DNA from: Deltaproteobacteria bacterium
GTDB taxonomy: Bacteria; Myxococcota; Myxococcia; Myxococcales; 40CM-4-68-19
Length of the DNA: 47,125 nt
Assembly: GCA_025358085.1 (NCBI GenBank)
Contig: JANYKT010000012.1
Location: forward strand, 1-47,125
Reading direction: 5' to 3'
Under the pieces are notes generated by a model. The model did no database searches. It was not told the DNA's origin and was given only the letters and a program-made list of their open reading frames with translations. The position numbers and the translations under genes were made by a program. Below are positions 23,121 through 42,462 of this stretch, piece by piece; the first letter of the stretch is position 1; each line of letters starts with the position of its first letter.

Positions 23121-23292
23121 ACCGAATGCCACTCGGTTAGCAGCGCCTTTTCTCTCTGCAAGGATCGCCGCCGCGACCCCCGCGCTTCTCCTGCGGCGTT
23201 CGTTGCCAGGTGAAAGGCCTCCTTGACTGAGTGGCTTTGCTGCTAAAACTGATCGTCATTGCACCTAAACTTCTACATTCAATGGAGATGCC

Positions 23293-24225
23293 ATGTCGCT
23301 TTATGAGATGTTCACTTCGAAGGGTCCGAGCGGCTTTGGCTATGGCGCAACCGCGGAGCAGGTGACACAGGGGCTCAAGCTCGACGGCAAGACCATCCTC
23401 GTGACCGGCTGCAATTCTGGCCTCGGGCTGGAGACCCTGCGGGTGCTGGCGCTGCGCGGCGCTCGAGTCGTCGCCCTCGCCCGCACCCTCGAGAAAGCCA
23501 CGGCCGCGTGCGCGCAGGCTGGGTCCGGTCCTGGGAAGGCGGTGCCGCTCGCCTGCGAGCTGTCCGATCCGCAGAGCGTCCGCGCCTGCGTCGCCGAGGT
23601 GAAGCGGCTCGGACTCAAGCTCGACGCCATCATCTGCAATGCAGGAATCATGGCCTTGCCAAAGCTTACCAAGTCCCATGGATATGAGTTGCAGTTCTTC
23701 ACCAATCATATTGGTCACTTCCTTTTGGTGACCGGCCTTCTCGCTCAGTTGACTGAAGACGGACGGGTCGTGGTGCTCAGCAGCGATGCGCATACCCGGG
23801 CCCCCAGGGGAGGTATTGAGTTCGACAACCTCTCGGGTGACAAGGGATATGGGGCCTGGCGCCAATATGGCCAGGCGAAGTTCGCGAACCTGCTCTTCGC
23901 CAAGGAGCTGGCGCGGCGCTTCGAGGGCACGCGCAAGACCGCCAATGCGGTGCACCCGGGAGTGATCAATACCAACCTGGCGCGCAACCTGAATCCAATG
24001 GTCGGATTCATACTCGCAAGCGTCGGCCCGCTGGCACTGAAGACCGTGGCGCAGGGCGCGGCGACACAGGTGTGGGCGGCAGTCAGTCCGGGCGCGGCCG
24101 GCCTCTCGGGCCAATACCTTTCGCACAGCAACGTGGCGAAGCCGCGCGCCGACGCCAATGACCCGGCGCTGGCAAAGCGGCTCTGGGAAGAGTCAGAGAA
24201 GATCGTCGCCGGACTCGGCAGCTGA
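23293..24225 (+). CDS. Short-chain dehydrogenase/reductase, retinol-dehydrogenase-like
   Basis: An NAD(P)-dependent oxidoreductase of 310 residues with a Rossmann fold. Seen: cofactor motif TGCNSGLG (38-45), CNAGIM, the catalytic Ser in VVVLSSDAH and YxxxK (Tyr 192, Lys 196). The pattern FDNL..G....YGQAKFANLLFA and HPGVINTNL resembles RDH11/12-type and WW-domain oxidoreductases. The start follows a TGGAGAT site. It is convergent with the receptor gene, with only 24 bases between the ends. The substrate is unknown. Confidence 0.92.
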   Translation: MSLYEMFTSKGPSGFGYGATAEQVTQGLKLDGKTILVTGCNSGLGLETLRVLALRGARVVALARTLEKATAACAQAGSGPGKAVPLACELSDPQSVRACVAEVKRLGLKLDAIICNAGIMALPKLTKSHGYELQFFTNHIGHFLLVTGLLAQLTEDGRVVVLSSDAHTRAPRGGIEFDNLSGDKGYGAWRQYGQAKFANLLFAKELARRFEGTRKTANAVHPGVINTNLARNLNPMVGFILASVGPLALKTVAQGAATQVWAAVSPGAAGLSGQYLSHSNVAKPRADANDPALAKRLWEESEKIVAGLGS

Positions 24226-24249
24226 ACTCGCTCCGGGTGCAGTCCGGAA

Positions 24250-27177
24250 TCAGAAGCTCGCGTTGGCCGTGATGCGGAAGGTGCGGCCGAGTTGCGGGAC
24301 GGCATGGTTCGGAAAAGGGATCTCGAGGCCTCCCGGCAAGAGCGGCTTCTCGTCGAGAACATTGTCGACAAACGCGCCGTAGCGAAGCTGCCACGGCGCA
24401 TAGACGCCAGTCAAGCCTGCATTCCAGTTGAGTGATTCCCCGAGCGTGACGTCGGGCAGCCGCGGGTCGTCGGAGGCGGCGAACCGGGCCGAGTTGTAGA
24501 CCAGCTCCGTTGCTATCGAGAGTCGCTCATAGGCCACCGGCGCCATCACCCGCAGGGCCCCGCTGTGCTGCGGCGCATTGGGTACGTCCGGATTGCCATT
24601 GTTATTGCGTATTTGATTGAATGAATACCAGAAGGCCACCAGCGCGTCGGGCCGCGGCTGCCAGCGCACCTCGCCCTCGGCCCCTGCGCTGAAGGTCAGG
24701 GCCGACTTGTTCTGGAAGCGGAAGCCGCTCTCGCCATCGGCGAGCTTCACCGCCTTGAGGCGGATGATATCGTCGATGCGGCTCCAATAGCCCGAGACCG
24801 TGGCGTTGAGATCATCAGTGAGCAGTTGAGTGTACTCGACCTCTCCGGTGCGCACGCTCTCGGGCGCGAGATGAACGACCCCGTCAAAGGTCACGCGTCC
24901 GCGCTCGTCCGGCGTCCCCTCGCCAGCGATCTGCCGGCCGCTGCGGAAATAGCGCTCGTTCAGTGTGGGCGCGCGATAGGCGGTGCCGAAGGCAAGCTTG
25001 AGCGTGCCCGCGAGGGACGGCCGCGCGATCAGGGCCACGCGCGGATGGACTTGCGGCGCCGGGAGCTGCTCCCTGGGCGATTCAACGGAGCCGCTCTTGA
25101 AGCCGTCGACGCGGACCGCGACATCGAGCTGCAGGCGTTCGCCCAGCCGCAGGTCGTCCCCGGCGTACACGCTGCCCACCAGCTGCGCATGCGATTCATC
25201 GATGCCGGGCGCGCCCGGCCGGGTGAACTGCAGCCGCGTGCGCCAGAGATCCTGCAGCTCTCCGCCGATGAAAACGCGGTTGCCGGCAAAGGCGGGCAGT
25301 CGCAGCCGCACTTCGCCTTCGGTCCAGTCGGCGAGCCGCGTGGCGCGCTCGAGATCGCCTTGCGACGGCAGGTCCTGGCGCGAGCGCGCGCCGTCCTCGG
25401 AGACGCGCGCGTCCAGCCCCAGCCCGGAGGCCAGCGTGTGGCTGAAGCTGCCTTCGAAGAAGAAGCGCTGGTCCTGCGCGTCCGCGCCGGGGACGCCAAA
25501 GCTGTCGAAAGGACCGGTGGCAATGCTCTTGTTGCGGCGATTGAAGACGGCGGACAACGCGAAGTCACCGGCGTGCGCGCGCAGGTCGGCGTGCTCGGCG
25601 TCCTCACCGTCGAGGTCGAGCGCGAACCGCGTCGCATTCCCGGTGCGCTCAGGCGCGGCGAAGATGCTCTCCCCGCCTTGCCGCAGAAAGGCGATGCGGC
25701 CGGTGACGCCGCTCGATGCGTTTCCGCCCGAGGCAATCAAATGCCCGGCGTTTTGGGTCAGGGAGCCGAGGAGCGTGCCCACTTCGATGCCGCGCGTGCG
25801 CAAGGAGGACCGGTGCACCACGTTCACGACAGCCAGGAAAGCGGCGCTGCCGTAGAGCACCGAGCCCGGTCCGCGCACGACCTCAATGCGCTCGACATCG
25901 TCAAGATCCACATCAAAGTCGTGGCCAATGAAGCCCTGTCCTGAAGAGAGATCATTCGTGACGTGGCCATCGGAGAGCACCAGCACCTTGTCGTTGTAGA
26001 CGCCGGGCGGCGAGAAGCCGCGGACGCCGAAGCTGTCGCGGGTGCGGTCCGAGGTGACATAGAGGCCGCGCACGGGCCGCAGCGCCTGGGTGAGCGTGGT
26101 GTATCCGAAAGCGAGGATCTCGCTGCGGTCAATCACGGTCACCGAAGCGGGCGCGTCCTCGATGCGCGTGAGCTGCCGTTCGGCGGCAACCACGGTGGGC
26201 CGCAGCCAGACGAGCCGCGCGTTCACGAACGAGCGCTCATTTTCGTGCACCTGGATGTTTTCGACGTGCGGCTCGCGACCCTCGGAGCTGATCTCGAGGG
26301 AGTGGCGGCCGATCGCGACATCCTTGATCACGGCGGGGGTAAAACCGGCCTCCTTGCCGTCGAGTCTCAAGAGCGCGCCTTCGACATTGGCACGCACCAC
26401 CAGCGTCCCGGCCCTGGGCGGTAGCGGCGACAGACGGTAGACCAGTGAGACGCTGCCGTCGGGCGGCACCTGGACGGGGAGCTGCTGCGCGACGTAACCG
26501 CTTGCCGAAAGATAGAGCAGGTGATCGCCGGGGAGCAGCTGCAACGGCGATCGCAGCGTTGGCCCCGCAGGCTTGTCGACGCTGACCTCGACCTCGCCGG
26601 GCTGCCCCGAAAGAGCGACCTTTCCATAGATGCGCTGCGGCTCGAGCTTGAGCAGCCGCGTCTGGCCGATCTGGAGTTGAGTCTGCGCGCGCAGAGAGCG
26701 GTAGCCCGGCAGCTCGACCATCGCCAGCACCGTGCCGGGCGGCAGCGCGAGCGTGGCCGGCGTCTGCCCACGCGCGCCCAGATCCTTGCGGTCGATATAA
26801 ATGGTCGCGCCCGGCGGATCGGATTCAATGCGGAGCAGCGCGAGCTGCGGCCGGAGACGCTCAATGGCTGTCTCCACCGCTCTTCGGTCTCCCTCGGGAA
26901 CGCCCTCGTCGAGGACTTCGAGGTACCAGCGGAAGGCTTCATTGGTGCGGTGAATCAACTCGAATGATCGAGCGATATTGAAGACGACATTGCGATTCTT
27001 TACCAATCGATAGGATCCGAGGAACTCGCTGAGCGCCTCTTCGACATTTCCTTTGCGAACGAGCGCAGCGCCGCGACGGAAGCGGAAATCGGCTTCGTCG
27101 GCAACCGAGTCCGCGCGGGCGGCGCGAACTCCGGACAACCCCAGCGACAGGATCAAGACGGCAAAGACTCGCGTCAC
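24250..27177 (-). CDS. TonB-dependent receptor with TPR and PEGA repeats in front
   Basis: An outer-membrane transporter of 975 residues with an unusual layout. Residues 1-22 are a signal peptide. About 25-110 form TPR-like helices (ADFRFRRGAALVRKGNVEEALSEF). Residues about 113-315 hold three PEGA-type beta repeats (LLRIESDPPGATIYIDRKDLG is the first, GTLVVRANVEGALLRLDGKEAG the third). Residues about 335-460 are the plug (DAPASVTVIDRSEI to VERIEVVRGPGSVLYGS), and the rest is the barrel, ending in Phe. The GTG start overlaps the stop of the histidine kinase by four bases, so the two are co-translated. The ligand is unknown. No TonB, ExbB or ExbD lies nearby. Confidence 0.92.
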   Translation of the reverse strand: MTRVFAVLILSLGLSGVRAARADSVADEADFRFRRGAALVRKGNVEEALSEFLGSYRLVKNRNVVFNIARSFELIHRTNEAFRWYLEVLDEGVPEGDRRAVETAIERLRPQLALLRIESDPPGATIYIDRKDLGARGQTPATLALPPGTVLAMVELPGYRSLRAQTQLQIGQTRLLKLEPQRIYGKVALSGQPGEVEVSVDKPAGPTLRSPLQLLPGDHLLYLSASGYVAQQLPVQVPPDGSVSLVYRLSPLPPRAGTLVVRANVEGALLRLDGKEAGFTPAVIKDVAIGRHSLEISSEGREPHVENIQVHENERSFVNARLVWLRPTVVAAERQLTRIEDAPASVTVIDRSEILAFGYTTLTQALRPVRGLYVTSDRTRDSFGVRGFSPPGVYNDKVLVLSDGHVTNDLSSGQGFIGHDFDVDLDDVERIEVVRGPGSVLYGSAAFLAVVNVVHRSSLRTRGIEVGTLLGSLTQNAGHLIASGGNASSGVTGRIAFLRQGGESIFAAPERTGNATRFALDLDGEDAEHADLRAHAGDFALSAVFNRRNKSIATGPFDSFGVPGADAQDQRFFFEGSFSHTLASGLGLDARVSEDGARSRQDLPSQGDLERATRLADWTEGEVRLRLPAFAGNRVFIGGELQDLWRTRLQFTRPGAPGIDESHAQLVGSVYAGDDLRLGERLQLDVAVRVDGFKSGSVESPREQLPAPQVHPRVALIARPSLAGTLKLAFGTAYRAPTLNERYFRSGRQIAGEGTPDERGRVTFDGVVHLAPESVRTGEVEYTQLLTDDLNATVSGYWSRIDDIIRLKAVKLADGESGFRFQNKSALTFSAGAEGEVRWQPRPDALVAFWYSFNQIRNNNGNPDVPNAPQHSGALRVMAPVAYERLSIATELVYNSARFAASDDPRLPDVTLGESLNWNAGLTGVYAPWQLRYGAFVDNVLDEKPLLPGGLEIPFPNHAVPQLGRTFRITANASF

Positions 27178-29418: not shown

Positions 29419-29600
29419 AGGGAATCGACGGCAGCCGCCTGACGATCGTCCGGCTGGGTAAGTACACAAAAGTCGGTCCCTGCTGAACTACACTTTTACC
29501 ATGGAATATACTTCAGTTTAACCTGATCGAGGTGCTTGTGCCATCATCGTCTTAAGAAAAAGTAGGCTTTTCCAACATCGTTATCTCTGACCTTGAGTCG

Positions 29601-29915
29601 ATGGATCGCGAACAGATCGATCAACTTTCTTTCGGTGTCGTGGGCCTTTCCAGTGAAGGCTTGGTGGAGGTTTATAACGCAACCGAATCACGGCTTGCAG
29701 GACTCCCGGCAGACACCGTAATGGGGGCGCCTTTCTTCCTCAGCGTGGCCCAGTGCATGAACAATTTCATGGTGGCCCAACGCCTTAAGGATGAGGTGGA
29801 GCTCGACGCAACGTTGCCTTTTGTCCTGACGTTTCGCATGAGGCCCACGCCGGTCGCGCTTCGGTTGCTCAAGAGCAAAAATTCTGCACGCTTCTACGTG
29901 CTTATACAACGCTGA
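29601..29915 (+). CDS. PYP-like (photoactive yellow protein family) PAS protein
   Basis: A 104-residue single PAS domain that aligns with photoactive yellow protein through the chromophore region without gaps (constant offset of 17). Tyr 25, Glu 29 and Cys 52 fall on PYP Tyr42, Glu46 and Cys69, the residues that hold and covalently bind p-coumaric acid. The surrounding FF-x-x-VAQC and the later M-x-PT strand also fit. Thr50 and Arg52 of PYP are Ala and Leu here. So it could be a photoreceptor or a PYP-fold relative that binds another ligand. A PAS-PAS-GGDEF gene begins 33 bases downstream, suggesting it controls c-di-GMP synthesis. Confidence 0.8.
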   Translation: MDREQIDQLSFGVVGLSSEGLVEVYNATESRLAGLPADTVMGAPFFLSVAQCMNNFMVAQRLKDEVELDATLPFVLTFRMRPTPVALRLLKSKNSARFYVLIQR

Positions 29916-29947
29916 TTCTTCGTTTGTTGCCCTGAAGGACTTTGCAG

Positions 29948-31249
29948 ATGACGACGAAAGAAAAAATCGAAGTGGAGACAGGTGAGGAGGAGAATGCCCG
30001 GCTGCTGGATTTTCTGTATGCTTGTCCAGTCGGCCTGGTGGAAATGTCCTACGACGGCACGATCAGCATGATCAATCCGCTTGCGATGCAGTTGCTTCTC
30101 AGACTGCATCCGACACCCTCGATGAATATTTTACCACGATGGAGAGGTACGGGCCTGAGCTGCGAAATCTCGTCGAAAGCTATTCGCCAGCTCAGGGTAC
30201 GGTCTGTGAAAATCGGCGAATTCTGGTGCGCTCTGGTCAGGCGAAAGAGCCAAGCAGTGAGGTTTTCTCCTGCACCGTGATCAAACTCGGTGCCCAACGA
30301 TACATGGTTTCTTTGAGTGATATTTCGGGGCAGGTCCAGCAGGAATACAAGCTGAAGGAAGCCGAGTCCTGGTTTGCATCTCTCCTCGACAGTGCCAATG
30401 ACTTTGGAGTCGCTTCGCTCGATGCGTCGGGCCATATTGCATCAGTCAGCTCATCGATCTCAAAGCAAACCGGCTTCAAGGAAGAAGAGCTGATTGGTCA
30501 GAGCCTTGACTTTTTGCAGGTGGCAAAGTTACCCGAAGGAGCGCTCGGAGCTCCAGAGCAGCTTGCACTGGCTGCCCGGGAGGGCTGGCATCTCCACGAA
30601 GATTGGCAACGACAGAAGGATGGTTCGAAGGCTTGGTATCAGCGTCTCGTCGCGGTGAAGCATGAACCTCACTCACACCGCCGGAGTCCATGGATATACG
30701 ATGGTGCTTCGAGAGGGGCAGCAACGTTCGATTGACGTTTATCGTCTCAAGCAGATGCTGACGCGAGATCACCTGACCGGCACCTTCAACCGTATGCACT
30801 TCTTTGAGGTTGCAGTACGGGAGTGCGCTCGTAAAAAGCGCTACGCCAAGCCGCTCTCACTGGTGATGGTCGACATCGACCTATTCAAGCGGGTCAATGA
30901 TGCTCATGGGCATGCCGCAGGCGATCAGGTATTAAAGCAATTTGCGCAACGCTGTATGTCGTTGCTGCGGCCCAGCGACATGATGGCACGCATCGGTGGC
31001 GAAGAATTCGCTATTCTCCTGCCAGAGACGAACGTGGATGGTGCGAAACTGCTCGCGGAGCGCCTGCGAGCGACTATCGCGGAAGTGTACATGGACGCGG
31101 ACTCTAGAAGGCTGCACATCACAGGAAGCTTCGGCTGCGCTGAGCTGGGCGAAAACTGTAACCTGGAAACCATGATGGCGGACGCCGATGCAGCCCTCTA
31201 CGAAGCAAAACAAACAGGTCGCAACCGTGTGGTAGGGAAGCAGGCGTAA
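29948..31249 (+). pseudogene. PAS-PAS-GGDEF diguanylate cyclase, interrupted by two compensating frameshifts
   Basis: Read through, this is a diguanylate cyclase of about 433 residues: two PAS domains, then GGDEF. Frame 2 runs from ATG 29948 to about 30,095 (first PAS start, VGLVEMSYDGTISMINPLAMQLL). Frame 1 carries the rest of PAS 1 and PAS 2 (TLDEYFTTMERYGPELRNLV to WYQRLVAVKHE) to about 30,665. Frame 2 resumes (AGVHGYTMVLREGQQRSIDVY) into the GGDEF domain with TRDHLTGTFNR, an active-site GGEEF and an RxxD inhibitory site (RPSD) five residues before it. One base is apparently lost near 30,095 and one gained near 30,670. It may be a true pseudogene or carry two sequence errors. Confidence 0.8.
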
Positions 31250-31538
31250 AGCGGAGGGTGCCTGCCTTTCTCGGCGAAGTTCGGAACGCTGCAAGGTACT
31301 GCTTCACCCCCCACGGATCTCTTCAGTATTGGCCTTGGCGGAGACAGCTCCCCCCGCGCGATCGCTTTTCAGGGAGGCCGCCCCTCCTTCTGCCGCGCGG
31401 GGGCCATGTCCGCCCGGGCTGCAGTAATCTCAAGCGTTGAGCATTGTCGCGTGCAGGACGCAAGCGGTCGCTGGAAGTTGAACTCTCGACATCTCCCGCA
31501 TAGCGTTCCCGCCGCACGGGGCAATGGACGAGGACATC
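31250..31538. other. Gap with no gene seen
   Basis: This 289-base stretch between the cyclase and the depolymerase has no convincing reading frame on either strand. The short minus-strand frame at 31323-31577 has no recognisable features. It presumably holds the promoter of the depolymerase gene, but no good -35/-10 pair stands out. Confidence 0.5.
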
Positions 31539-33056
31539 ATGACTGGGATGCCTGCCTCTCGCTCTGCCCTCCTGCATGCTTTTCTAGCGGGCCTGGTCCT
31601 TGTCGCCATTCCAGCCCATGCGGCGAGTCCGCTCCCGGCTTACAACGTTGACCCCGGCACAGCGTCGGTCTCCGGGCTCTCCTCCGGCGGCTTCATGGCG
31701 GCGCAGCTGGGCGTCAGCTATGCGAATACTTTCAGGACCGGCTTCGGCGTCTTCGCCGGCGGGCCTTTCGATTGCGCCCGCAATCAAAACTATACGGCGT
31801 GCATGTACAACTCGACGCCAGCCATTTCCACGCCCGTGGCCAACATGAAGAGCTGGAGTGGAAATCAAATCGACTCCACTTCGCTGCTGGCCAACCGACG
31901 TATCTTTCTCTGCGTCGGCAGCAGCGACACTACCGTGGGTCCCAACGTCGAAAACCAGCTCAAGAGCCAGCTGGGGAACTTTGCTACCGCAGGCAACGTG
32001 AGCTACGTGGTCTCCTCCGGCGCGGCGCATACCTTTCCTACCGATTTCACCGCCAGCGGCGACAATTCCTGCTCCAGCGCCGCCTCCCCTTACATCAGCA
32101 ATTGCAGCTATGACGGCGCAGGGGCCGCTTTGAGCTGGATGTATGGCACCTTGAGCGCGCGTAATAACGGAACCCTCGGGGGCTCGGTGATCCCTTTCGA
32201 CCAGACGGCGTTCATTTCCCCAGGCCATGGACTCGATACTACCGGCTATCTTTACGTGCCGGCCGCTTGCGCCGTGGGCGGAAGCACCGTGTGCAAGGTG
32301 CATGTCGCGCTGCATGGATGCCTGCAAAGCTACAGCAACGTATCGATGCAATTCGTCAACAACACCGGCTACAACAAATGGGCTGACACCAACAACATCA
32401 TCGTCCTGTATCCGCAGACCATTGCCGACAACACCAGCCACGCGACCTGGGACAGCGGTTCGCTCGCGAATGCCAATGCCTGCTGGGACTGGATTGGCTG
32501 GTATGGCTCGAATGCCGATCAAAAGGGTGGCGTGCAGATGGCCGCCCTGGTGGCCATGGTCAACAGAATCACCAGCCGATACGGCGGAGGAGGGGGCGGC
32601 GGCGGGACCACCATCCCGGCCGTGCCGTCTGGCCTCGCGGTCACCGGCACCACAGGCAGCACGGTGTCGCTCGCGTGGAGCGCTGCTGCGGGAGCCACGA
32701 GCTACAATCTCTATCGCGGCGGCCTGAAGGTCGGCAGCAGCACTTCGACCAGCTTCACCGACTCCGGGCTCGCCGCGACAACGACTTACCGCTACGCAGT
32801 GACCGGCGTGAACGGCGTGGGCGAGAGCGCCAAATCAGCGACGGTCAGCGGAACCACCACCTCGGGCTATACGCCGTCTTGTACCAACGCGAGCAATTAC
32901 AGCCACGTCGTGGCAGGTCGTGCCCACGACGGTTCCGGATATGCGCTTGCCAATGGCTCCAACCAGAACATGGGCCTTGATAACGTTTTTTATACCAACG
33001 TGCTCGAGGAGACGGCCCCCGGCTATTACGTGATCAACAACGGCATCTGTCCCTGA
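31539..33056 (+). CDS. Secreted PHB-depolymerase-like esterase with FN3 domain
   Basis: A 505-residue exported hydrolase. Residues 1-28 are a signal peptide (ends AHA-AS). The catalytic domain follows directly, with the lipase box GLSSG (Ser 48), an Asp candidate in GSSDTTVGP and the oxyanion/His segment VHVALHGCLQSY. A Gly8 linker leads to a fibronectin type III domain (about 365-450), then a Cys-bounded C-terminal domain of about 50 residues (SHVVAGRAHDGSGYALANGS) like those that bind substrate in extracellular PHB depolymerases. Family members release 3-hydroxybutyrate from PHB granules. ATG 31524 is an alternative start; 31539 has GAGGA close upstream. Confidence 0.88.
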   Translation: MTGMPASRSALLHAFLAGLVLVAIPAHAASPLPAYNVDPGTASVSGLSSGGFMAAQLGVSYANTFRTGFGVFAGGPFDCARNQNYTACMYNSTPAISTPVANMKSWSGNQIDSTSLLANRRIFLCVGSSDTTVGPNVENQLKSQLGNFATAGNVSYVVSSGAAHTFPTDFTASGDNSCSSAASPYISNCSYDGAGAALSWMYGTLSARNNGTLGGSVIPFDQTAFISPGHGLDTTGYLYVPAACAVGGSTVCKVHVALHGCLQSYSNVSMQFVNNTGYNKWADTNNIIVLYPQTIADNTSHATWDSGSLANANACWDWIGWYGSNADQKGGVQMAALVAMVNRITSRYGGGGGGGGTTIPAVPSGLAVTGTTGSTVSLAWSAAAGATSYNLYRGGLKVGSSTSTSFTDSGLAATTTYRYAVTGVNGVGESAKSATVSGTTTSGYTPSCTNASNYSHVVAGRAHDGSGYALANGSNQNMGLDNVFYTNVLEETAPGYYVINNGICP

Positions 33057-33081
33057 CCGCAAGTTTACCAGCGCGAGAACC

Positions 33082-33715
33082 GTGCGGCTCCTGCAGCAAA
33101 ACATCCGCTCCGGCATCATCGTCCCTGGCTTCCTCTCCAGCGTGGCGGGGACGCTTGGGTCCTTCCTCTTGCTCGAGCGGCTGGGCAACCAGGCGAAGCA
33201 GCTCGCTGACCGGAGGAACGGCGCGGTTCACGAGATCGACAAGCTGGGCGGCCTCGCGAACGCCTACTTCATCGCCAATCAGCAAGGGGACCTGATCTAC
33301 GTTCTCGGGCTTCAGCAAACCTCGCGGAAGGACCTGATCAAACTGATCTACCAGGGCAACGTACTCGACCGCGCGGAGCCGGTGCGCAACTTGATCGGCG
33401 CGCTCGCCATTGACGGACTCACCGACTATCGGAAAACCTATGGCGAATATGAGCGGCTGAGCGATCGAGCCCGGGGATCGCAGGAGTACGAACCCTTCCT
33501 CGCGGTAAAGTCGTACGAGCGCGAGGTGGTGACGCTGGCACAGTCCCGGGTCTCCGGAGCTGCAGCTGTCGCTCGTGCCGCTGCAGCAGGAGATGACGCT
33601 GGTTGAGTCCAGGCTGCGCCGCCGGCAGGTGCTCCTCATTTTGTTCTCGGTAGTGGGCGCCTGCCTGCTCTTGATCGCCAACTTGTTCGAACAGAAAGTA
33701 AAGGTCGAGAAGTAA
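33082..33715 (+). pseudogene. Two-TM sensory protein with a frameshift
   Basis: Starts at GTG and shows a first membrane helix (SGIIVPGFLSSVAGTLGSFLLL), then a helical periplasmic domain of about 150 residues (FIANQQGDLIYVLGLQQTSRKDLIKLIYQGNVL) like CHASE3 or four-helix-bundle sensors. The frame breaks near 33,541-33,552 in a CCCGGG run. In the next frame it continues as PELQLSLVPLQQEMTLVESR and a second membrane helix (VLLILFSVVGACLLLIANLF), ending at 33715 with no output domain. The whole would be about 210 residues. An inserted base in the run, real or from sequencing, explains it. The following receiver-cyclase may be its partner. Confidence 0.7.
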
Positions 33716-33960
33716 CCGCGGCTCGCCACCTCGGTCGAAGGCCTGAGCCAACCCGGTGACGCCGCCGCAGGCTCTGTGGCACTTCATCGAGGCCGCGCGA
33801 GCACGGGCGCCGAAGCTCTAGTTCTTCGCAGGCAAGCCAAGGCTCGAATGCCTGTCAAGTAGAGCGGTGCGCGCGCTGTTTCTGCGCTAGAGTCACAATC
33901 GGTCTCGCCGCGAAGGAAGCGAGAAGCGATCCGTGCAAGGGAAGGGAGCGCCGAGTTCCA

Positions 33961-34865
33961 TGATCACCGCAACTGACATCCTTCACGGCAAGATCCTGAT
34001 CGTCGACGATCAGGAAGAGAACATCCTCCTGCTCGAGCAGATGCTGCGCAGCGCGGGCTATGTCTCCTTCACCTCCACCATGGAATCGGGCAAAGTCTGT
34101 GAGCTTCACCTCGTCAATCGTTACGATTTGATTCTGCTCGATCTGCAGATGCCCGGAATGGACGGATTCCAGGTGATGGAAAATCTCAAGCAGATTGAAA
34201 CGAGCGGCTATCTTCCCGTCCTGGTAATCACCGGCCAGCCCGCTCACAAGCTGCGCGCGCTGAAGGCCGGCGCGAGGGACTTCGTCAGCAAGCCGATCGA
34301 GCCCGCCGAGGTCTTGATCCGGGTCCACAACATGCTTGAAGTCCGCCTGCTCCATCTGGAAACGAAGACGCTCTACGACCGTGTCGTCGCGGAGCAGAAA
34401 GTGTCGGAGCGACTCTTGCTGGACCTGCTGCCCGATTCCATCGCGGAGCGATTGAAAGCGCGGCCCGCAGTTGCGGTTCAGGGCTTCACGGAACTCATCA
34501 CGCAGAGCTACGCGGAAGTGACCGTGCTGTTTGCAGACATCATCGAGTTCACCAGGTTCTCCGAGGGCAAGAGCGCCGAGGTCCTGCTGGGCGTGCTGAA
34601 TGAGATTGCCACCCGTTCTGACGGCCTCGACGGCGATCCCGCCCGCGATCGGAGCAAGACCATCGGCGACGCCTGGCTTGCCGCCGTGGGACTGCCGGAC
34701 GGCCTCGCCGATCAATCGATTCGTGCCTCGCATATGGCCCTTGATCTGGCGGAGGCGCTCGAACGCTTCAATGCCCGTAGCCGCTATCAATTGAAGGTTC
34801 GAATCGGCGCCAGTATCAGCGCCGAGGCAGGCCGCGGCAAGCGCGAAATCCTCCTCGACTTGTAA
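33961..34865 (+). CDS. Response regulator with shortened class III nucleotide cyclase domain
   Basis: A 301-residue protein. Residues 1-125 form a receiver (ILIVDDQEEN, phosphoacceptor Asp in LILLDLQMPGMDG, Lys in FVSKPIEP). A linker helix follows (residues 130-165, AEQKVSERLLLDLLPDSIAERL), then a class III adenylate/guanylate cyclase domain from about 185. Both metal-binding Asp (VLFADIIEF and KTIGDAW) and the Lys of KTIGD are visible. The protein ends at GKREILLDL, just before the expected WGDTVNxAxR block, so the transition-state Asn and Arg are missing. The GTG at 33933 is another possible start. It follows the two-TM sensor gene. Confidence 0.85.
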
Positions 34866-34874
34866 GACTCCGGC

Positions 34875-36530
34875 TCATGGGCTGGAGTTTTTTTCTCCAG
34901 CGCCGATCAATCCGTAGCTCTTGAGTCTCCGATACAAGGTCGCCGAGCCGATCTGGAGCTGCTTTGCGGTATGCGTCTGGTTGCCGCCATTCAATTCGAG
35001 CGCCGCGAGTATGTATTCTTTCTCGACTTCTTCGAGCGGCCGCACCTTGCCCGTGGTTACCGCGGGCCTGGGAAACGCTTGCCGGACCTCCTCGGCGAGA
35101 TCCTCCACCTCGACGCGACCTCCGCGCGCAAGCGCCACGGCTCGCTCCATCGAGTTTTGCAGCTCGCGCACGTTGCCGGGCCAGTCGTAGCGAAGCAGCA
35201 GTTCGGCCGCGCCCGGGGCCAGCCCCGACACGTCGCGCTTCATCCGCAGGGCCGCCTCCGCGAGCAGCACCCGGGCGAGGGGCAGCACATCGTCCCTGCG
35301 CTCGCGCAGGGGCGGCACGCGCAGCTCGATGACCTTCAAGCGATAATAAAGGTCCTGCCGGAAAGCGCCGCTGGCGACGCCGAGCGCCAGGTCGCGGTTG
35401 GTCGCGGTGACGATGCGCACGTCGACCGCCCGGCTTTTGTTCTCGCCGACGCGCCGGACTTCCCGCTCTTGAATCGCCCGCAAGAGCTTGACCTGCATGG
35501 CCGGTGAGACCTCACCGACCTCGTCGAGCAAAAGCGTTCCGCGGTTGGCCGCCTCGAACAGGCCGGGCCGGTCCTGGGTCGCACCGGTAAACGCCCCCCT
35601 GGCGTGTCCAAAGAGTTCGCTCTCCAGAAGCGTTTCAATGATGGCGCCGCAATTGACCGCGATGAAGGGTCCGGTCGCGCGCGCGGACTCTTCGTGGACG
35701 AGCCGCGCAATCCGCTCCTTGCCTGAACCGCTCTCGCCGGTGATGAGAACGGTCGAGTCGACCTTGGCCACCCGGCGCGCGAGATCGACGAGCTGCCGCA
35801 TGGTCGGGCTCCGCACCACGATTCCGAGCGGCTCCTCGACCTCGGGCGCCACACGGATGATCGCCGCGCGGCTCTCGCGGAGCTTGCGCTCGGCCGCCTT
35901 CAATGTCTCGGTGACCCGGTTGAGCGAGACGTCGAGGCACTCCTTGAGGCGGACCGGCGCGTAGAAGCGCAGCTCCTCTGCGCGTTCGTCCCCCCACTCC
36001 TCCCGCGTGCGTCCGTAGAGGTGGCAAGCCGCATCGCCCTTGCCCATGCAACGGTCCTCGAGGACGTAGACCTCTTTCCCGGCGCTCCGGCTGAGGTAGC
36101 CGCTGGTGAGGCCGCTGATCGTCCAGCACACCGGCACCTCGGACCGGCCAAAGTGCAGGAGGTGCTGCTCGGCTTCATAAGATGCGCCGAGGATCAAGCC
36201 CTCCCTGGACAAAGCTCCTCCGCTTCCCGGCTCAACGCTGAAAAGCCCTTCGAGGGTATGAATGCGAGTGCCCGCGCGGGTCCAGTCCTCCTTGGTGTCC
36301 CATTTGAATTCGGCTTGCATCGCCTCGGCCATGCGCCAGCCGTGGGCGAAGCCGAACTGGGTGAGTACCGTGCGGGCCGCGGTGAGGCCGAAGTTCTCGA
36401 CCAGGTACTTTCGCAACAGCCCCATCGCGACAGCGTCGAGGAGGAGCGCTCGCTGCCCGGCGAAGCGGATCACGCCCCCCTGCGGGTCCAGCTCAAGCAG
36501 TTCCTTGTGGTCCAGCCCGTCGGCGCGCAT
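34875..36530 (-). CDS. XylR/DmpR-type sigma-54-dependent activator with V4R domain
   Basis: A 551-residue enhancer-binding protein. Residues 1-115 resemble the XylR N-terminal sensor, and about 115-185 form a V4R domain with Cys 135, Glu 158, Cys 161 and Cys 169, the pattern that binds zinc and aromatic effectors in DmpR. The AAA+ domain (about 235-465) has Walker A GESGSGKE (265-272) and the sigma-54 contact loop GAFTGA (312-317). The Fis-type helix-turn-helix ends the protein ([25 protein letters not shown]). No aromatic-catabolism genes adjoin it; the divergent neighbour is an ice-binding lipoprotein behind a -24/-12 promoter match. Confidence 0.95.
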
Positions 36531-36570
36531 CAGCTCGCTCCCTCGAATTGACGTGAGGCTACTTCATATT

Positions 36571-36598
36571 GATGGCATCCACCATCGCCCGAGGATGG
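36571..36598. promoter_or_regulatory. Candidate upstream activator sites (inverted repeats)
   Basis: Three half-sites alternate in direction: GATGG (36571), CCATC (36582) and GATGG (36594), spaced by 6 and 7 bases. They sit in the divergent gap between the sigma-54 activator and the ice-binding gene, about 70-95 bases before the predicted start of transcription, where enhancer sites of such activators usually lie. Confidence 0.4.
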
Positions 36599-36638
36599 CT
36601 CAAAATGAAAACAGCACGGGATCACGGTGGATTTCGAC

Positions 36639-36655
36639 TTGGCCCGAGAAGTGCT
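36639..36655 (+). promoter_or_regulatory. Putative sigma-54 (-24/-12) promoter of the ice-binding gene
   Basis: TTGGCCCG-AGAA-GTGCT fits the TTGGCACG-N4-TTGCT consensus with two mismatches; the invariant GG and GC are separated by ten bases as required. Transcription would start near 36,665, about 60 bases before the ATG at 36726. A sigma-54 activator gene lies divergently next to it. Confidence 0.65.
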
Positions 36656-36725
36656 GTGTATGAGCCCGGGGCCGCCAACAACGGGCCATAACGAAGCTCG
36701 ATGGCGAAATGAAAGAGGGACGAAA

Positions 36726-37505
36726 ATGACACGATTCTCAATTGGTGCGTCGATGATGTTTGCCTTGGTCGGTCTGGTCGCCTGCGGAGGTGCTGAAGTC
36801 GGCACTGCGAACAAGGCCGGGACCGCAAGCACGGAATTGCTGGGCCTCGGCCCGGCGCCGGTGGCCTTGGGTAAGGCTGGAAACTTCGCCATTCTGAGCA
36901 AGACCGGGATCACGGACGTCTATGCCTCCGCTATCACCGGAAACGTTGGAACGAGCCCCATTACCGGCGCAGCGCTGTTGCTCTCCTGCGGCGAAGTGAC
37001 GGGAACCATCTTCACCGTCGATGCGGCCGGTCCGCTTCCTTGCGCCGTGACTGACGCCACCGGACTGACCGCGGCCGTGGGAGACATGCAGCTCGCATAC
37101 GACGACGCCGCCGGACGCGTATCGCCCAACTACACTGAGTTGGGCGCCGGTGAGATCGGCGGGCTGACGCTGACCCCCGGTCTTTACAAGTGGGGCACCA
37201 GCCTGTTGATTACCCATGATGTCACGCTCTCGGGCGGCCCGAACGACGTCTGGATCTTCCAGGTTGCAGGAACCCTGATTGAGGGCAACGCCGCGCGGAT
37301 CACCCTGGCCGGCGGCGCTCTCGCGAAGAATATCTTCTGGCAGGTTGCTGGCTCCGTGACCCTTGGAACGACCGCTCACTTCGAGGGCATCGTTCTGGGC
37401 AAGACGCTGGTGGCCGTGAATACGGGAGCCTCGGTGAACGGCCGGCTGTTGGCGCAGACCGCGGTGACCCTGCAGATGAATGCGATTACGCAGCCCGCAC
37501 GGTAA
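36726..37505 (+). CDS. Ice-binding-type (DUF3494) lipoprotein
   Basis: A 259-residue protein of the DUF3494 beta-solenoid family, whose studied members bind ice crystals or act as adhesins. The N-terminus is a lipoprotein signal (MMFALVGLVACGG, lipobox Cys about residue 19). The family blocks are clear: LGKAGNFAILSKTGITDV, AITGNVGTSPI, AYDDAAGR, ELGAGEIGGLTLTPGLYKW, VTLSGGPNDVWIFQVAGTL, NIFWQVAGSVTLGTTAHFEG and GRLLAQTAVTL. The ATG follows an AGAGGGA site. A -24/-12 promoter match precedes it and a strong hairpin follows. Whether it binds ice or serves adhesion cannot be told from sequence. Confidence 0.93.
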   Translation: MTRFSIGASMMFALVGLVACGGAEVGTANKAGTASTELLGLGPAPVALGKAGNFAILSKTGITDVYASAITGNVGTSPITGAALLLSCGEVTGTIFTVDAAGPLPCAVTDATGLTAAVGDMQLAYDDAAGRVSPNYTELGAGEIGGLTLTPGLYKWGTSLLITHDVTLSGGPNDVWIFQVAGTLIEGNAARITLAGGALAKNIFWQVAGSVTLGTTAHFEGIVLGKTLVAVNTGASVNGRLLAQTAVTLQMNAITQPAR

Positions 37506-37530
37506 TTCTCAGCAACTTGAACCACCAGTC

Positions 37531-37560
37531 GGGGACACCATCGAAAGCGATGGTGTCCCC
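37531..37560 (+). terminator. Hairpin terminator after the ice-binding gene
   Basis: A perfect 13-bp stem (GGGGACACCATCG and its complement, 37531-37543 and 37548-37560) closes an AAAG loop. A weak T-rich tail (GTTGTTTG) follows. It could act in both directions, ending the ice-binding gene on + and the deacetylase remnant on -. Confidence 0.6.
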
Positions 37561-37617
37561 GCAGTTGTTTGCGATGGTATCCCGCTGGCATTCCCCTCGC
37601 CATCGCGCGGCTTCGCT

Positions 37618-38540
37618 TCAGGTTGGCATTGGCGCCGTGGCAGCAGGAGCCGTCCCCTGGCTCGGCTTCAGCAGTCGCCGCGCGGCCCGCAGCAATTCGG
37701 CGAAGCCGGAAAGTTCGGCCTCAAACTCCAGGTCGGAGCTGCGCTCGCTGTCGAGGAATCGGCGCAGCGCATACGGGATGCGTCAACCGGTCGTTGAGTC
37801 CCACATCGCAAGTAGTGGCGGTCCGGATCCCTGCCGCTTCGAGACAAGGAAAGAACGCCTCCGACCAATAGCCGCTCGGGTAGCAGGAGTGCACGAGCGG
37901 CCCCGGCGCGGAGTTGGCCAGGGCTTTGCGATTCTGCTCGACTCCTTGCGCGCCGCCGCGCCCGGCAACCGGTGCCGGTGCGTGTGCAGCTGGATATCGA
38001 AATCCTCGGCGGCTTTGGCCACTTCCGCAGGCGACATCAATTGCAGGCTCTTCTGCCGGATGAGCTGGTCGAGGTCGACTTCCAGTCCGGAAGCGACTCA
38101 CGCAAGAGCGCACCTCTCTGTGTCTCATCTGATTGCTGCTCTCCAAAGTCAGTCAGCTCCCAGGGAGCGTCAGCCTTTTGCGCCGGAGGAGCGAGCGACG
38201 TCTCTCCCTCCAACTCGAAGCCAGGCACCGCCAGATCCAGAAGCGAAGCGCTGCTGCGCCGAAAGCAATATTGCAGCGCCAATCGGAAGACGGGGACATC
38301 TCGTTCTTAATAGCAGGTGGTCAATACAAGGTCGCTTTCAAGCCTGCTTGAGGAGCGGCAGGCAATCCGGCGCGTCAATGTCGTTGCCCGGATGAAAAGT
38401 TCCTGCGAGAAGCTCGCCTCGTCGGATGACTCGGTCCCATGACAGGCGAGGATACGGAGCCGATTGCGAGTGAGGAGACGCTACAGCCGGAACAAGCCGG
38501 CGGCCTTGCAAAAACGATACAGGCTTGATTTCAAGGTCAC
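37618..38540 (-). pseudogene. Decayed polysaccharide deacetylase (NodB-type)
   Basis: Pieces of one gene are spread over several minus-strand frames. The GTG at 38540 overlaps the ATP-grasp stop by four bases and gives TLKSSLYRFCKAAGLFRL, a TAG, then LLTRNRLRILACHG (family RIL-x-YHG start) and another stop near 38,305. A second part carries ALQYCFRRSSASLLDLAVPG (38,050-38,290). The next frame has MSPAEVAKAAEDFDIQLHTHRHR, then HSCYPSGYWSEAFFPCLEAAGI in another frame, and FLDSERSSDLEFEAELSGFAELLRAARRL in the last, ending at 37618. The NodB TFDDG motif is missing. Two stops, three or more frame changes and the lost motif mark a true pseudogene. Confidence 0.82.
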
Positions 38541-39763
38541 TGAAGCTCCTTGAGCGACGGCTTTGTGACCGCCGCAGTCACGGGTGCGCGGCGGTGGAGC
38601 AGAGGTCGCGCGAAATCGCCGATGGACCGCCAGAACAACATCCGATCGCCGGGAAAGAGCAGGTCTTTCTTGATGGCTGGATTCAATGCCAGCCAGCAGA
38701 GCTGCAGCAGAGAGCCAAGCTTGTCGCCCATTGAAAGATGCGTCGACTTCAATTTCGACCAGACGTGTTGGACCTCCAGCGGGAGGTGAACGCAGGTCGC
38801 CTGTTCATAGGCCGCTTGCGGTGAAGCCGGCTGGCCGCGCCAGGCGTCGAGCAACAGTCTCGGGAAATCAACCCCGGCATAAAGTGCCAGATGGAGCGAA
38901 CCCCAGAACCGGGCGTTCATTTCGACGAACCAGAACTGGCCGGTGTCCGGGTCCCAACGGTATTCCATCATTGCGACTCCTCGCCACCCCGTAGCTGCGA
39001 GCTTTTCCCGCGCGTCGCGAAGGATCGCCTCGTGCCGGAAGCTCTTCCGAAGCGAGGAGACACCGCCGGTGAAAGGGACCTCGTGCAACCGGAGGTGCAT
39101 GAACTCCGCAAGCAAGCCTTTGTCCGTCACCAGGAAAGAGGCGCCGACGCCGCGGCCAGGAACGTGGCCCTGCACGATGGCGTGCCGGAAGCGCCGGGTC
39201 AGCGACCGCAGCAACTCAATCGCTTCTGCAGAAGTCTCCGCGCGCACCGTCCTACCGCGCGACTCGTCCAGCGAATGGCATCCGTCGGTCTTGACGTACA
39301 ACGGGAGCCCCAGGGCCTCCAGCCGGGCTGCGGACGGCAGCACTGGAAGGTCCACCAGCAAGGTGGGCGGCAGGTGCGGCGCGCCCCGCGACATAAGGTG
39401 TTGGAGCAAGTCATACTTGCTCAGCGCCAGCCGCGTCAGCGCCTCGTCGCCCGCTTCGAAAGGCACCAGGGCACGAAGGTCCTGATCCTGAGGTGTGAGC
39501 GAAAGGAGAAAGCTCTCCGAGGGAACGATTGCGCGGATTTGATTGGCGCGTACGTAGTCCCGCACCCAGGCGACGTAGAAAGGACCACAAGGCGGCGCGA
39601 CCACGCCCCGCGTCGCGTAACGAGAGCGAAGACCCAACGCGGACGATTGGCTTGAGATCGCGTGAACGGCAAACCCCGCGCGGCCGAGCGAGCGGATCAC
39701 GCCGATAGCACCCATCCTGTCGGCTTGGGGCACCAGCACGTTGAAGTCATTGGCTGGCCGCAA
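38537..39763 (-). CDS. ATP-grasp carboxylate ligase-like protein
   Basis: About 408 residues if started at the TTG at 39763 behind a GGGGG sequence; the frame is open further up to 40090 but that part runs under the divergent gene. The N-terminal domain (VLVPQADRMGAIGVIRSLGRAGFAVHAIS) precedes an ATP-grasp fold with the substrate Lys in LPLYVKTDG and the metal-binding block FWFVEMNARFWGS (E-x-N-x-R). The family joins a carboxylate to an amine or similar nucleophile using ATP. The partner gene downstream is the ruined polysaccharide deacetylase, so a cell-surface sugar modification is likely, but the substrate is unknown. Confidence 0.82.
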   Translation of the reverse strand: MRPANDFNVLVPQADRMGAIGVIRSLGRAGFAVHAISSQSSALGLRSRYATRGVVAPPCGPFYVAWVRDYVRANQIRAIVPSESFLLSLTPQDQDLRALVPFEAGDEALTRLALSKYDLLQHLMSRGAPHLPPTLLVDLPVLPSAARLEALGLPLYVKTDGCHSLDESRGRTVRAETSAEAIELLRSLTRRFRHAIVQGHVPGRGVGASFLVTDKGLLAEFMHLRLHEVPFTGGVSSLRKSFRHEAILRDAREKLAATGWRGVAMMEYRWDPDTGQFWFVEMNARFWGSLHLALYAGVDFPRLLLDAWRGQPASPQAAYEQATCVHLPLEVQHVWSKLKSTHLSMGDKLGSLLQLCWLALNPAIKKDLLFPGDRMLFWRSIGDFARPLLHRRAPVTAAVTKPSLKELQ

Positions 39764-39907
39764 AGTGCCCCCGCGCGCAAAATTATTTTGCCCTATAAAG
39801 TATTGAATGAGTGATTGAAGGGCAAGTGTCTCAAGCAGGGGCGTGGCGAAATCATTTCCTCTTGCCCGGTCTGCAATGGGCCCACAACCTGTCCCGGGGG
39901 GATTTGC

Positions 39908-41674
39908 ATGCGCAGCTTGTTTCTCTTTCATGTCGGTTCGAATGGCGGCTACGCGATCGGTCCGCTGGAGCAACTCTTCCTCAGGACCGGACTCGACCTT
40001 TCCTCCGGGGACCCGGGTGCCGTTCATTTTGCCTATCGCGACTTCTCGAAGGGAAGGCCTGCGATCGCGCTGGAAAATGTAGTCGTTCACGACTTCACCG
40101 ATCGCCGCCCGGCCAACCTCGAGCGCCTCGCCGGCTACGTGCGCGCGAACCGCATCGAGCTGGTGGTAGCCTTTGATTTCGAGCCCATCGATCCGCTGGT
40201 CGTTGCATTGAAGAAGGCCGGCGCGCGCACCTTCATTGCCTATTGGGGCGCGCCCGTGTCCGGAGCCTCCCCTCGTTGGAAAGCGCTGCTCATGGCGGCG
40301 CAGTTCGCGCTCTCCCGGTCCACTGTCGATTCAATGATTTTCGAATCGAAAGCGATGGCCGACACCGCCACGCGCGACCGCGGTCTGCCGCGCTCGCGCA
40401 TCGACCTGGTGCCGTTGGGCGTCCGCACCGACCTCTTCCGGCCGCAGGTCTCCACCTACGCGCATGACACGTTCGGGTTCCCGAAAGACCGGCGCATCTT
40501 CGTCTATTCCGGACATATGGAGCACCGCAAAGGCGTACGCGTGATCATTGGAGCGGCGCTCGAACTGTTGCGCCAAAGGAACGATGTCGCTTTCCTGATC
40601 TGCGGCAATCGCGCTGGCGAGGCCGACGCCTTCGAGGCCACCATTCGTGCAGCGGGGCAAAGCGCGCATCTCCGGCTGGGCGGCTATCGAGCGGACCTGC
40701 CGCGGATCTTTCCCGGCTGCTTCGCCGGGGTCATCGCGTCGACGGGCTGGGATTCCTTTACCTATTCTTCCGTGGAGATGGCGGCCTGCGGGCTCCCGGT
40801 CATCGCCTCCCGGCTGCAAGGCCTCGCAGAAGCCGTGCTCGACGGCAAGACAGGGCTTCTGTTCGAGCCCGGTGATTCGCGAGCGCTGGCCGCTGCCATG
40901 GAGCGACTGCTGGATGAACCGGGTCTGGCGCGGGCCCTGGGCCAGGCTGCCAGGGAGCGTGTCGAGCGCGAGCTGGACGTCGAGACGCAATTCAAGGCCT
41001 TCCAATCCGTGATTGAGCGCCGGATGAACTCAAATGCTTCTTTTGCTGGACAATGGCTGATGACGCCAGAGCGGTTGCAGGCGCGGTTCGGCCGCCGCAA
41101 GGGATTCCTCCGCCATTGCCTCGCGCGTCTGATGGATTCAACCGGCGCTTATCGCAAAGAGCGGGATATCGACTGGTCCCGGGTGCGCCGGCTGGTCTTT
41201 GTCTGCCAGGGCAACATCTGCCGGAGCGCCTATGCGGAGGCGCGCGCGCGCAGTCTCGGATTGCGAGCTGCATCGTTTGGGCTTCTGGCCGGTGAAGGGG
41301 CCGAGGCCAATGCCACCGCAGTCGAAAAGGCTGCCCGGCGCGGAATCGATCTTGGCGCGCATCGCGCCCGGCGGCCTTCCCCGAGCCTCATGGCCGACGG
41401 TGACCTGCTCATTGGAATGGAATCGAAACACCTTGAAAGCCTCGCGCGGCTCACGAAAGCGAAGTCAACGCTGCTCGGGCTCTGGTCCACGCCAGCGCGA
41501 CCGCACCTCGAGGACCCCTACGGGCTCTCAGGTGCTTACTTCGAAACCTGTTTCGATGTGATTGATTCCGCGGTCGCAAACCTCTCGACCCTGGCTCGGG
41601 CCGCGCGCGATGAAACCGGGTCCGCGGGGCAAGGCAGCGAGCATGACGGCCGCTCCGCGAGGTGCGCAACCTGA
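39908..41674 (+). CDS. Glycosyltransferase (GT4) fused to low-molecular-weight tyrosine phosphatase
   Basis: A 588-residue two-domain protein. Residues 1-380 are a GT-B fold glycosyltransferase of the GT4 type (VPLGVRTDLFRP, FVYSGHMEHRKGV, and SSVEMAACGLPVIASRLQGLAE with the sugar-nucleotide Glu). A linker leads to a LMW-PTP domain from about 428: CQGNICRS (Cys 433, Arg 439) is the complete C-x5-R-S phosphate loop, and the general acid Asp 536 is in EDPYG. LMW-PTPs of this type (Wzb, Etp) dephosphorylate tyrosine kinases of capsule export. The ATG at 39908 follows GGGGGGA; upstream in-frame residues have no fold. No stop or frame change separates the domains. Confidence 0.92.
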   Translation: MRSLFLFHVGSNGGYAIGPLEQLFLRTGLDLSSGDPGAVHFAYRDFSKGRPAIALENVVVHDFTDRRPANLERLAGYVRANRIELVVAFDFEPIDPLVVALKKAGARTFIAYWGAPVSGASPRWKALLMAAQFALSRSTVDSMIFESKAMADTATRDRGLPRSRIDLVPLGVRTDLFRPQVSTYAHDTFGFPKDRRIFVYSGHMEHRKGVRVIIGAALELLRQRNDVAFLICGNRAGEADAFEATIRAAGQSAHLRLGGYRADLPRIFPGCFAGVIASTGWDSFTYSSVEMAACGLPVIASRLQGLAEAVLDGKTGLLFEPGDSRALAAAMERLLDEPGLARALGQAARERVERELDVETQFKAFQSVIERRMNSNASFAGQWLMTPERLQARFGRRKGFLRHCLARLMDSTGAYRKERDIDWSRVRRLVFVCQGNICRSAYAEARARSLGLRAASFGLLAGEGAEANATAVEKAARRGIDLGAHRARRPSPSLMADGDLLIGMESKHLESLARLTKAKSTLLGLWSTPARPHLEDPYGLSGAYFETCFDVIDSAVANLSTLARAARDETGSAGQGSEHDGRSARCAT

Positions 41675-41686
41675 GCTGCTCGGGGA

Positions 41687-41704
41687 CCCCGCCGAGCGGC
41701 GGGG
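41687..41704. terminator. Hairpin between convergent genes
   Basis: CCCCGCC-GAGC-GGCGGGG is a perfect 7-bp GC stem with a 4-base loop in the 49-base gap between the ends of the glycosyltransferase and the lipoprotein genes. No T run follows on either strand, so termination is only a guess from position. Confidence 0.4.
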
Positions 41705-41723
41705 GCCGAGGTTGTTCTCGCGA

Positions 41724-42359
41724 TCAATGCACCGAGTTGAAGACGAGGTCGACCTGCGCGTCCACCGTACCCGAGCCCGAGACTTTACCGTTGATGCTGT
41801 TGAGCGCGCTCTGGGTGATCTCGCCATGTCCCGAGATTGACGTCTTCGTCTTGCAGTCGCTCTTGCAGGTCGCAGTGGCGTTCGCGACACAATTCACGTC
41901 GCTCGAGTTCTTGCACTGCACCTGGGCGCTGGCCGTGCAGTAATCCGTACAATTGGTGTCGCTCGTCGGCAGGCTGGCCTGGACGGTGAACGTCGCGACG
42001 CTCGAGGTCTTCACGTTGCTCACCACGCCGCAGACGGGATTGGTAATGCTGCCGCTGCTCTGGGCGCTCCCGTAGTCGCTGACGTAGTCGCCGCCGTCCG
42101 AGACGGACCCCGAGGTCATGACCGTCTCGCTGTAGTCGCCGCTGGTCAACGTGCAGAGCGCTCCGGCCGCTTTGTCGAAAGTTCCCGCACCGGTGAGCGT
42201 GACCGTGACTTTCAGGTCGTCGGGCTTCGGCTGCGGAGCCACCTGCTTGCCGCCTTCGCTGGCTGGCTTGGCATAGGTGGCCTTGCCGTGGGTATTTGTC
42301 TGGACGGTGGTGCTTCCGCAGGCTGCGATGGTGAAGCAGCAGAGAAGGGCGATGCGCAT
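41724..42359 (-). CDS. Cysteine-rich lipoprotein, unknown
   Basis: A 211-residue protein whose family I do not know. The ATG at 42359 follows GGAG and gives MRIALLCCFTIAACGS, a lipoprotein signal with lipobox AAC. A Lys/Pro-rich spacer leads to a Ser/Thr-rich domain with two Cys (near LCTLTSGDY and NPVCGVV) and then a Cys-dense segment (NCTDYCTASAQVQCKNS and the following ATCKSDCKTK). The Cys spacing suggests several disulphides. It is convergent with the glycosyltransferase-phosphatase gene and divergent from the glycosylase gene. Confidence 0.8.
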   Translation of the reverse strand: MRIALLCCFTIAACGSTTVQTNTHGKATYAKPASEGGKQVAPQPKPDDLKVTVTLTGAGTFDKAAGALCTLTSGDYSETVMTSGSVSDGGDYVSDYGSAQSSGSITNPVCGVVSNVKTSSVATFTVQASLPTSDTNCTDYCTASAQVQCKNSSDVNCVANATATCKSDCKTKTSISGHGEITQSALNSINGKVSGSGTVDAQVDLVFNSVH

Positions 42360-42462
42360 GGAAGCTCCTGCCTGATTGAGGTTTACAGCATCCCAGGGAC
42401 AGCCGCGGCGGCGCTGTGGCCACCGGCTGCACGGGAGGAAGCAGTGTTGTATACCGGCGCGC

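Follow-up and report, generated by a model that had tools for sequence, protein, structure and literature searches.

A laterally acquired and apparently decayed photoactive yellow protein operon in a Myxococcota genome, and a candidate partner PAS domain accompanying photoactive yellow proteins of clade C

The stretch of DNA analysed (hereafter the window; 47,125 nucleotides, contig JANYKT010000012.1) belongs to a Myxococcota genome and contains, at the edge of an insertion, a gene for a photoactive yellow protein (PYP), followed by the disrupted gene of a diguanylate cyclase, the first domain of which is termed partner PAS domain (pPAS) below. An intact version of this pair occurs in L082, the lichen-metagenome-derived genome of a member of the Acidobacteriaceae. 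The features are arranged as follows (supporting evidence in brackets):

29420 to 42375, no strand assigned: insertion of ~13 kb (absent from five family relatives; low GC)
29518 to 31255, plus strand: region similar at the DNA level (70%) to the pyp operon of L082, ending after the cyclase gene (alignment)
29601 to 29915, plus strand: PYP of clade C type, 104 aa (TIGR02373, PDB matches, alignment with 100 PYPs, dN/dS)
29948 to 31249, plus strand: disrupted pPAS-PAS-GGDEF diguanylate cyclase gene (reading frames; alignment with the intact L082 gene)
29999 to 30345, plus strand: pPAS, split by indel 1 (profile A3 matches at 29999-30127 and 30103-30345; fold of the L082 homologue)
30129 to 30133, plus strand: indel 1, deletion of a single base compared with L082, at a run of T, shifting the frame from 2 to 1 (alignment)
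30355 to 30642, plus strand: second PAS domain, sensory box (TIGR00229, E 2.1e-9)
30671 to 30672, plus strand: indel 2, deletion of five bases compared with L082, located between these two positions and shifting the frame from 1 to 2 (alignment)
30764 to 31228, plus strand: GGDEF domain, active site GGEEF, inhibitory site RPSD (PF00990, E 6.6e-43)

As judged from its sequence, the open reading frame at 29601-29915 is a photoactive yellow protein of the Burkholderiales-type clade C. All three chromophore residues of PYP (Tyr42, Glu46, Cys69) align with Y25, E29 and C52 of the window protein, both with solved PYPs and in an alignment with 100 PYPs, which bears out the preliminary description of the locus, where Tyr, Glu and Cys had been placed at these positions and Cys69 equated with Cys52. 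The TIGR02373 model (photo_yellow) matches with 60.4 bits (E 1.8e-16), i.e., under its strict cut-off of 143 bits; this model is reported to reach only 20% of PYP homologues (PMC9664959). By sequence, the best match among solved structures is Ppr of Rhodospirillum centenum (1mzu, E 5.8e-12). Clade C, which has been little studied, is marked by the retention of Met100 and the loss of Phe92, Phe96 and Trp119 (PMC9664959), and the window PYP shows exactly this combination, with Met100 present and Leu92, Leu96 and Tyr119 at the other sites (position 92 being read from the same alignment with 100 PYPs). In a tree, it is nested among PYPs of the Burkholderiales type. It also possesses Gln68, which was rejected as a unique trait, being present in 8 of the 100 aligned PYPs. 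Concerning positions 50 and 52, Thr50 and Arg52 are indeed absent, as had been observed before, but the tuned or altered photochemistry suggested on this ground is rejected, since Ala50 and Leu52 belong to the published family consensus (Ser47, Leu49, Ala50, Leu52; PMC12826048), with which S47, L49, A50 and L52 of the window PYP agree exactly. Directly 5' of the ATG, in-frame codons at 29577-29600 resemble L082 at the amino-acid level, with no usual start codon there.

Between the stop codon of the PYP gene and the next ATG lie 32 bases, and a pPAS-bearing GGDEF sequence follows directly 3' of the PYP. The adjacency of a PAS-PAS-GGDEF gene, previously given as 33 bases downstream, thus holds, but its status as a single intact gene does not: two out-of-frame indels interrupt the cyclase in the assembly, and its reading frame switches from 2 to 1 and back to 2. 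The net length change relative to L082 amounts to six bases, the frame is restored after indel 2, and no further stop occurs. The first PAS domain of the cyclase escapes Pfam but is detected by a profile of relatives and by AlphaFold. The GGEEF motif, located in the open reading frame 30662-31249, gives the GGDEF domain, at the sequence level, the GG(D/E)EF signature of an active diguanylate cyclase; together with RPSD as the RxxD site, it agrees with the earlier statement that both sites are intact, and the GGDEF part (195 aa) might be translated independently. The baseline for frameshifts was taken from the contig of the window itself, on which around 15 syntenic host genes match family relatives in one frame; a rate based on randomly chosen contigs of another genome of the family was dropped, as too few orthologues matched there in a single frame and shadow frames were misleading.

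The operon of L082 comprises a PYP (81% identical to that of the window), a 443-aa PAS-PAS-GGDEF protein, a ligase-like AMP-binding family protein and a GGDEF-EAL protein. In the DNA alignment with L082, the ligase and GGDEF-EAL genes are absent from the window beyond 31255. Between the two genomes, dN/dS is about 0.09 for the PYP and likewise about 0.09 for the middle of the cyclase gene, which argues for a recent breakage; both genes were thus subject to selection during most of the period after the divergence from L082. Taken together, the two indels, these ratios and the single frames of the host genes favour a recent decay.

Concerning the surroundings of the pair, coaBC directly precedes a gene of the uracil-DNA-glycosylase family (at 42376 in the window) in five family relatives, so that the region from 29.4 to 42.4 kb is recognized as an insertion. 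The GC content reaches its minimum of 0.516 at 29.5-30.5 kb, with 0.65-0.73 to the left and 0.60-0.65 to the right. The PYPs of the window and of L082 group together in the tree (support 100/92), distant from the three other PYP-type genes of the genome (on contigs C84, C114 and C207). Vertical inheritance within Myxococcota is rejected by this tree and by the empty site in the relatives, and to judge from these sequence comparisons the PYP-cyclase cassette is laterally acquired. Elsewhere in the insertion, sensor-like and REC-cyclase genes (33082-34865) look truncated or frame-shifted, the cyclase match of the latter (33933-34865) spanning profile positions 3-106 of 183, and an ice-binding-like protein is encoded at 36627-37505 (PF11999, E 1.8e-63), the closest pyp operon being that of a lichen genome. 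A TonB-receptor/PEGA gene region at 23137-27170, the flanks of which are adjacent in the family relatives, constitutes a second insertion.

A supply of p-coumarate in the window genome is possible on the basis of its gene content. Besides the histidine ammonia-lyase HutH, a second aromatic ammonia-lyase exists, for which the best NCBIfam model is tyrosine ammonia-lyase (BagA/FevW-like; 439 bits, under that model's cut-off), and near it on contig C17 lies a gene for an acyl-adenylating enzyme that is 32% identical to the ligase of L082. The candidate lyase and ligase genes that had been suggested as a check are therefore found, albeit with the lyase under its cut-off and both situated in another cluster: on C17 (L007, L162), genes for ammonia-lyase, acyl-adenylating enzyme, glycosyltransferase and acyltransferase stand together, resembling a cluster of the aryl-polyene type. 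A close copy of the operon ligase was sought in the genome and rejected, the best match being this 32% one. As to the other PYP-type genes, that on C114 (L002 40-1851) lies around 20 bp after a gene for a GAF and class III adenylate/guanylate cyclase protein, a possible light/cAMP pair, which was rejected as a conserved neighbourhood because the PYPs of related genomes showed no such neighbour; on C207 (L003 1138-2522), a PYP-type PAS domain is apparently part of a histidine kinase, with the PAS and HATPase parts in two overlapping frames.

The pPAS domain also occurs in other genomes. Neither Pfam nor NCBIfam contains a model that reliably recognises it, and no description of it as a shared domain was found in PMC9664959 or PMC12826048, subscription literature lying largely outside this search. 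AlphaFold predicts a PAS-like fold for the pPAS of the L082 homologue (mean pLDDT 94), and Foldseek leads from the predicted fold to PAS domains, PYP among these. Of 80 related PYP loci, 77 have a pPAS 3' of the PYP (of the other three, two are located at contig ends), and 50 loci possess two pPAS proteins; the neighbours of PYP relatives in other genomes, proposed earlier for comparison, are thus related. According to home-made profiles, the outputs attached to pPAS are GGDEF (58 proteins), GGDEF-EAL (53 proteins, four of which carry an additional GGDEF) and kinase (8 proteins). In 40 of the genomes from which these loci come, 73 of 76 pPAS domains have a PYP no more than 5 kb away. Among 195 Burkholderiaceae genomes (the family of Massilia timonae, the family name being the author's reading), pPAS is found in 38, PYP in 37 and both in 37 (Fisher p 4e-39), such that only one genome has pPAS without PYP, and six of the seven unlinked pPAS domains belong to PYP-bearing genomes. 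Within 200 bp, pPAS accompanies 40/40 clade C PYPs of this set, but 0/13 other PYPs, the two groups being divided at a profile A1 score of 125 bits. In a set of 195 Myxococcota genomes, pPAS is confined to the window genome and two others, both of which encode a PYP closely related to that of the window; in these two, histidine kinases take the place of the GGDEF proteins behind the PYP, and the N-termini of these kinases resemble the first PAS of the window cyclase.

It seems reasonably probable that pPAS is a dedicated receiver for clade C PYP, one sensor thus serving several output enzymes via the same docking PAS domain; a direct contact between PYP and pPAS is proposed. The association could alternatively reflect shared operon descent only, with proteins that do not touch each other. 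Operons move as blocks, and the profile was seeded from PYP neighbours, with several of the Burkholderiaceae genomes counted contributing sequences, so that shared descent explains a part of the co-occurrence; as the whole explanation it is nevertheless considered somewhat unlikely, since the same pPAS is joined to three different outputs and several genomes with an unlinked pPAS protein still bear a PYP. The signalling partners of PYP are still called unknown (PMC9664959, PMC12826048), and a domain whose occurrence follows that of one PYP clade almost 1:1, with three output types and in several phyla, is a concrete candidate.

The window is best interpreted as a decayed copy of a laterally acquired clade C PYP operon, in the intact form of which PYP would act in a light-dependent manner on pPAS outputs (probability around 0.65). 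In an intact operon, PYP would be loaded with p-coumarate, by the operon ligase where present; blue light would change its shape, and PYP would then act on the N-terminal pPAS of the proteins encoded just 3', namely a GGDEF c-di-GMP synthase, usually a GGDEF-EAL protein and, in some lineages, a histidine kinase, whereby light may set the c-di-GMP level or the kinase output. In the window, the ligase and GGDEF-EAL genes would have been lost and the synthase broken by two frame-disrupting deletions, with PYP intact; because of these losses, the window PYP has probably lost its own output, and the cassette probably its function. A working light/c-di-GMP system, as put forward in the preliminary description, is therefore supported for the intact relatives and doubtful in the window genome.

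It is unlikely that the cyclase is intact in the organism, with both indels as assembly errors and the chromophore supplied through ammonia-lyase and ligase genes located elsewhere in the genome. Such errors would agree with the strong purifying selection across both genes, with the six-base total change that restores the frame in the absence of extra stops, and with the candidate tyrosine ammonia-lyase and acyl-adenylating enzyme on C17; two indels in 1.3 kb, however, contrast with none in around 15 host genes of the same contig, the dedicated ligase and the GGDEF-EAL gene are missing, and the REC-cyclase (33933-34865) of the same insertion also looks truncated. Quite improbable is a PYP retained to act on another kinase or cyclase beside a mere remnant: its frame is intact and constrained, and of the three further PYP-type genes one neighbours a GAF-cyclase gene and another is apparently part of a histidine kinase, but the profile search revealed no second pPAS in the genome, clade C PYPs are nearly always accompanied by one, and the constraint measured against L082 reflects mostly the time before the decay. 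A decayed operon copy thus remains the preferred reading, and the window illustrates a clade C cassette entering a new phylum and apparently decaying there.

PYPs beside GGDEF or EAL genes have been published for clade C (PMC9664959), and 29 pyp operons including GGDEF or EAL neighbours are on record (PMC12826048), so that the window pair constitutes one more, apparently decayed, example. It shares with the published clade C PYPs (PMC9664959, PMC12826048) the clade and the GGDEF gene directly 3', whereas it differs in its Myxococcota genome, its disrupted cyclase and the absence of ligase and EAL genes. Idiomarina loihiensis, as far as it is portrayed where cited in PMC9664959, equally possesses a single-domain PYP beside a GGDEF protein, for which light control of biofilm was proposed, but that PYP belongs to clade A. 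Ppd of Thermochromatium tepidum, following its citation in PMC12826048, also links PYP to c-di-GMP enzymes, yet as a fusion of PYP, phytochrome and GGDEF/EAL, whereas the window has separate genes and no phytochrome. The PYP domain of Rhodospirillum centenum Ppr, despite being the closest solved structure by sequence, is part of a phytochrome-histidine kinase protein and belongs to clade A.
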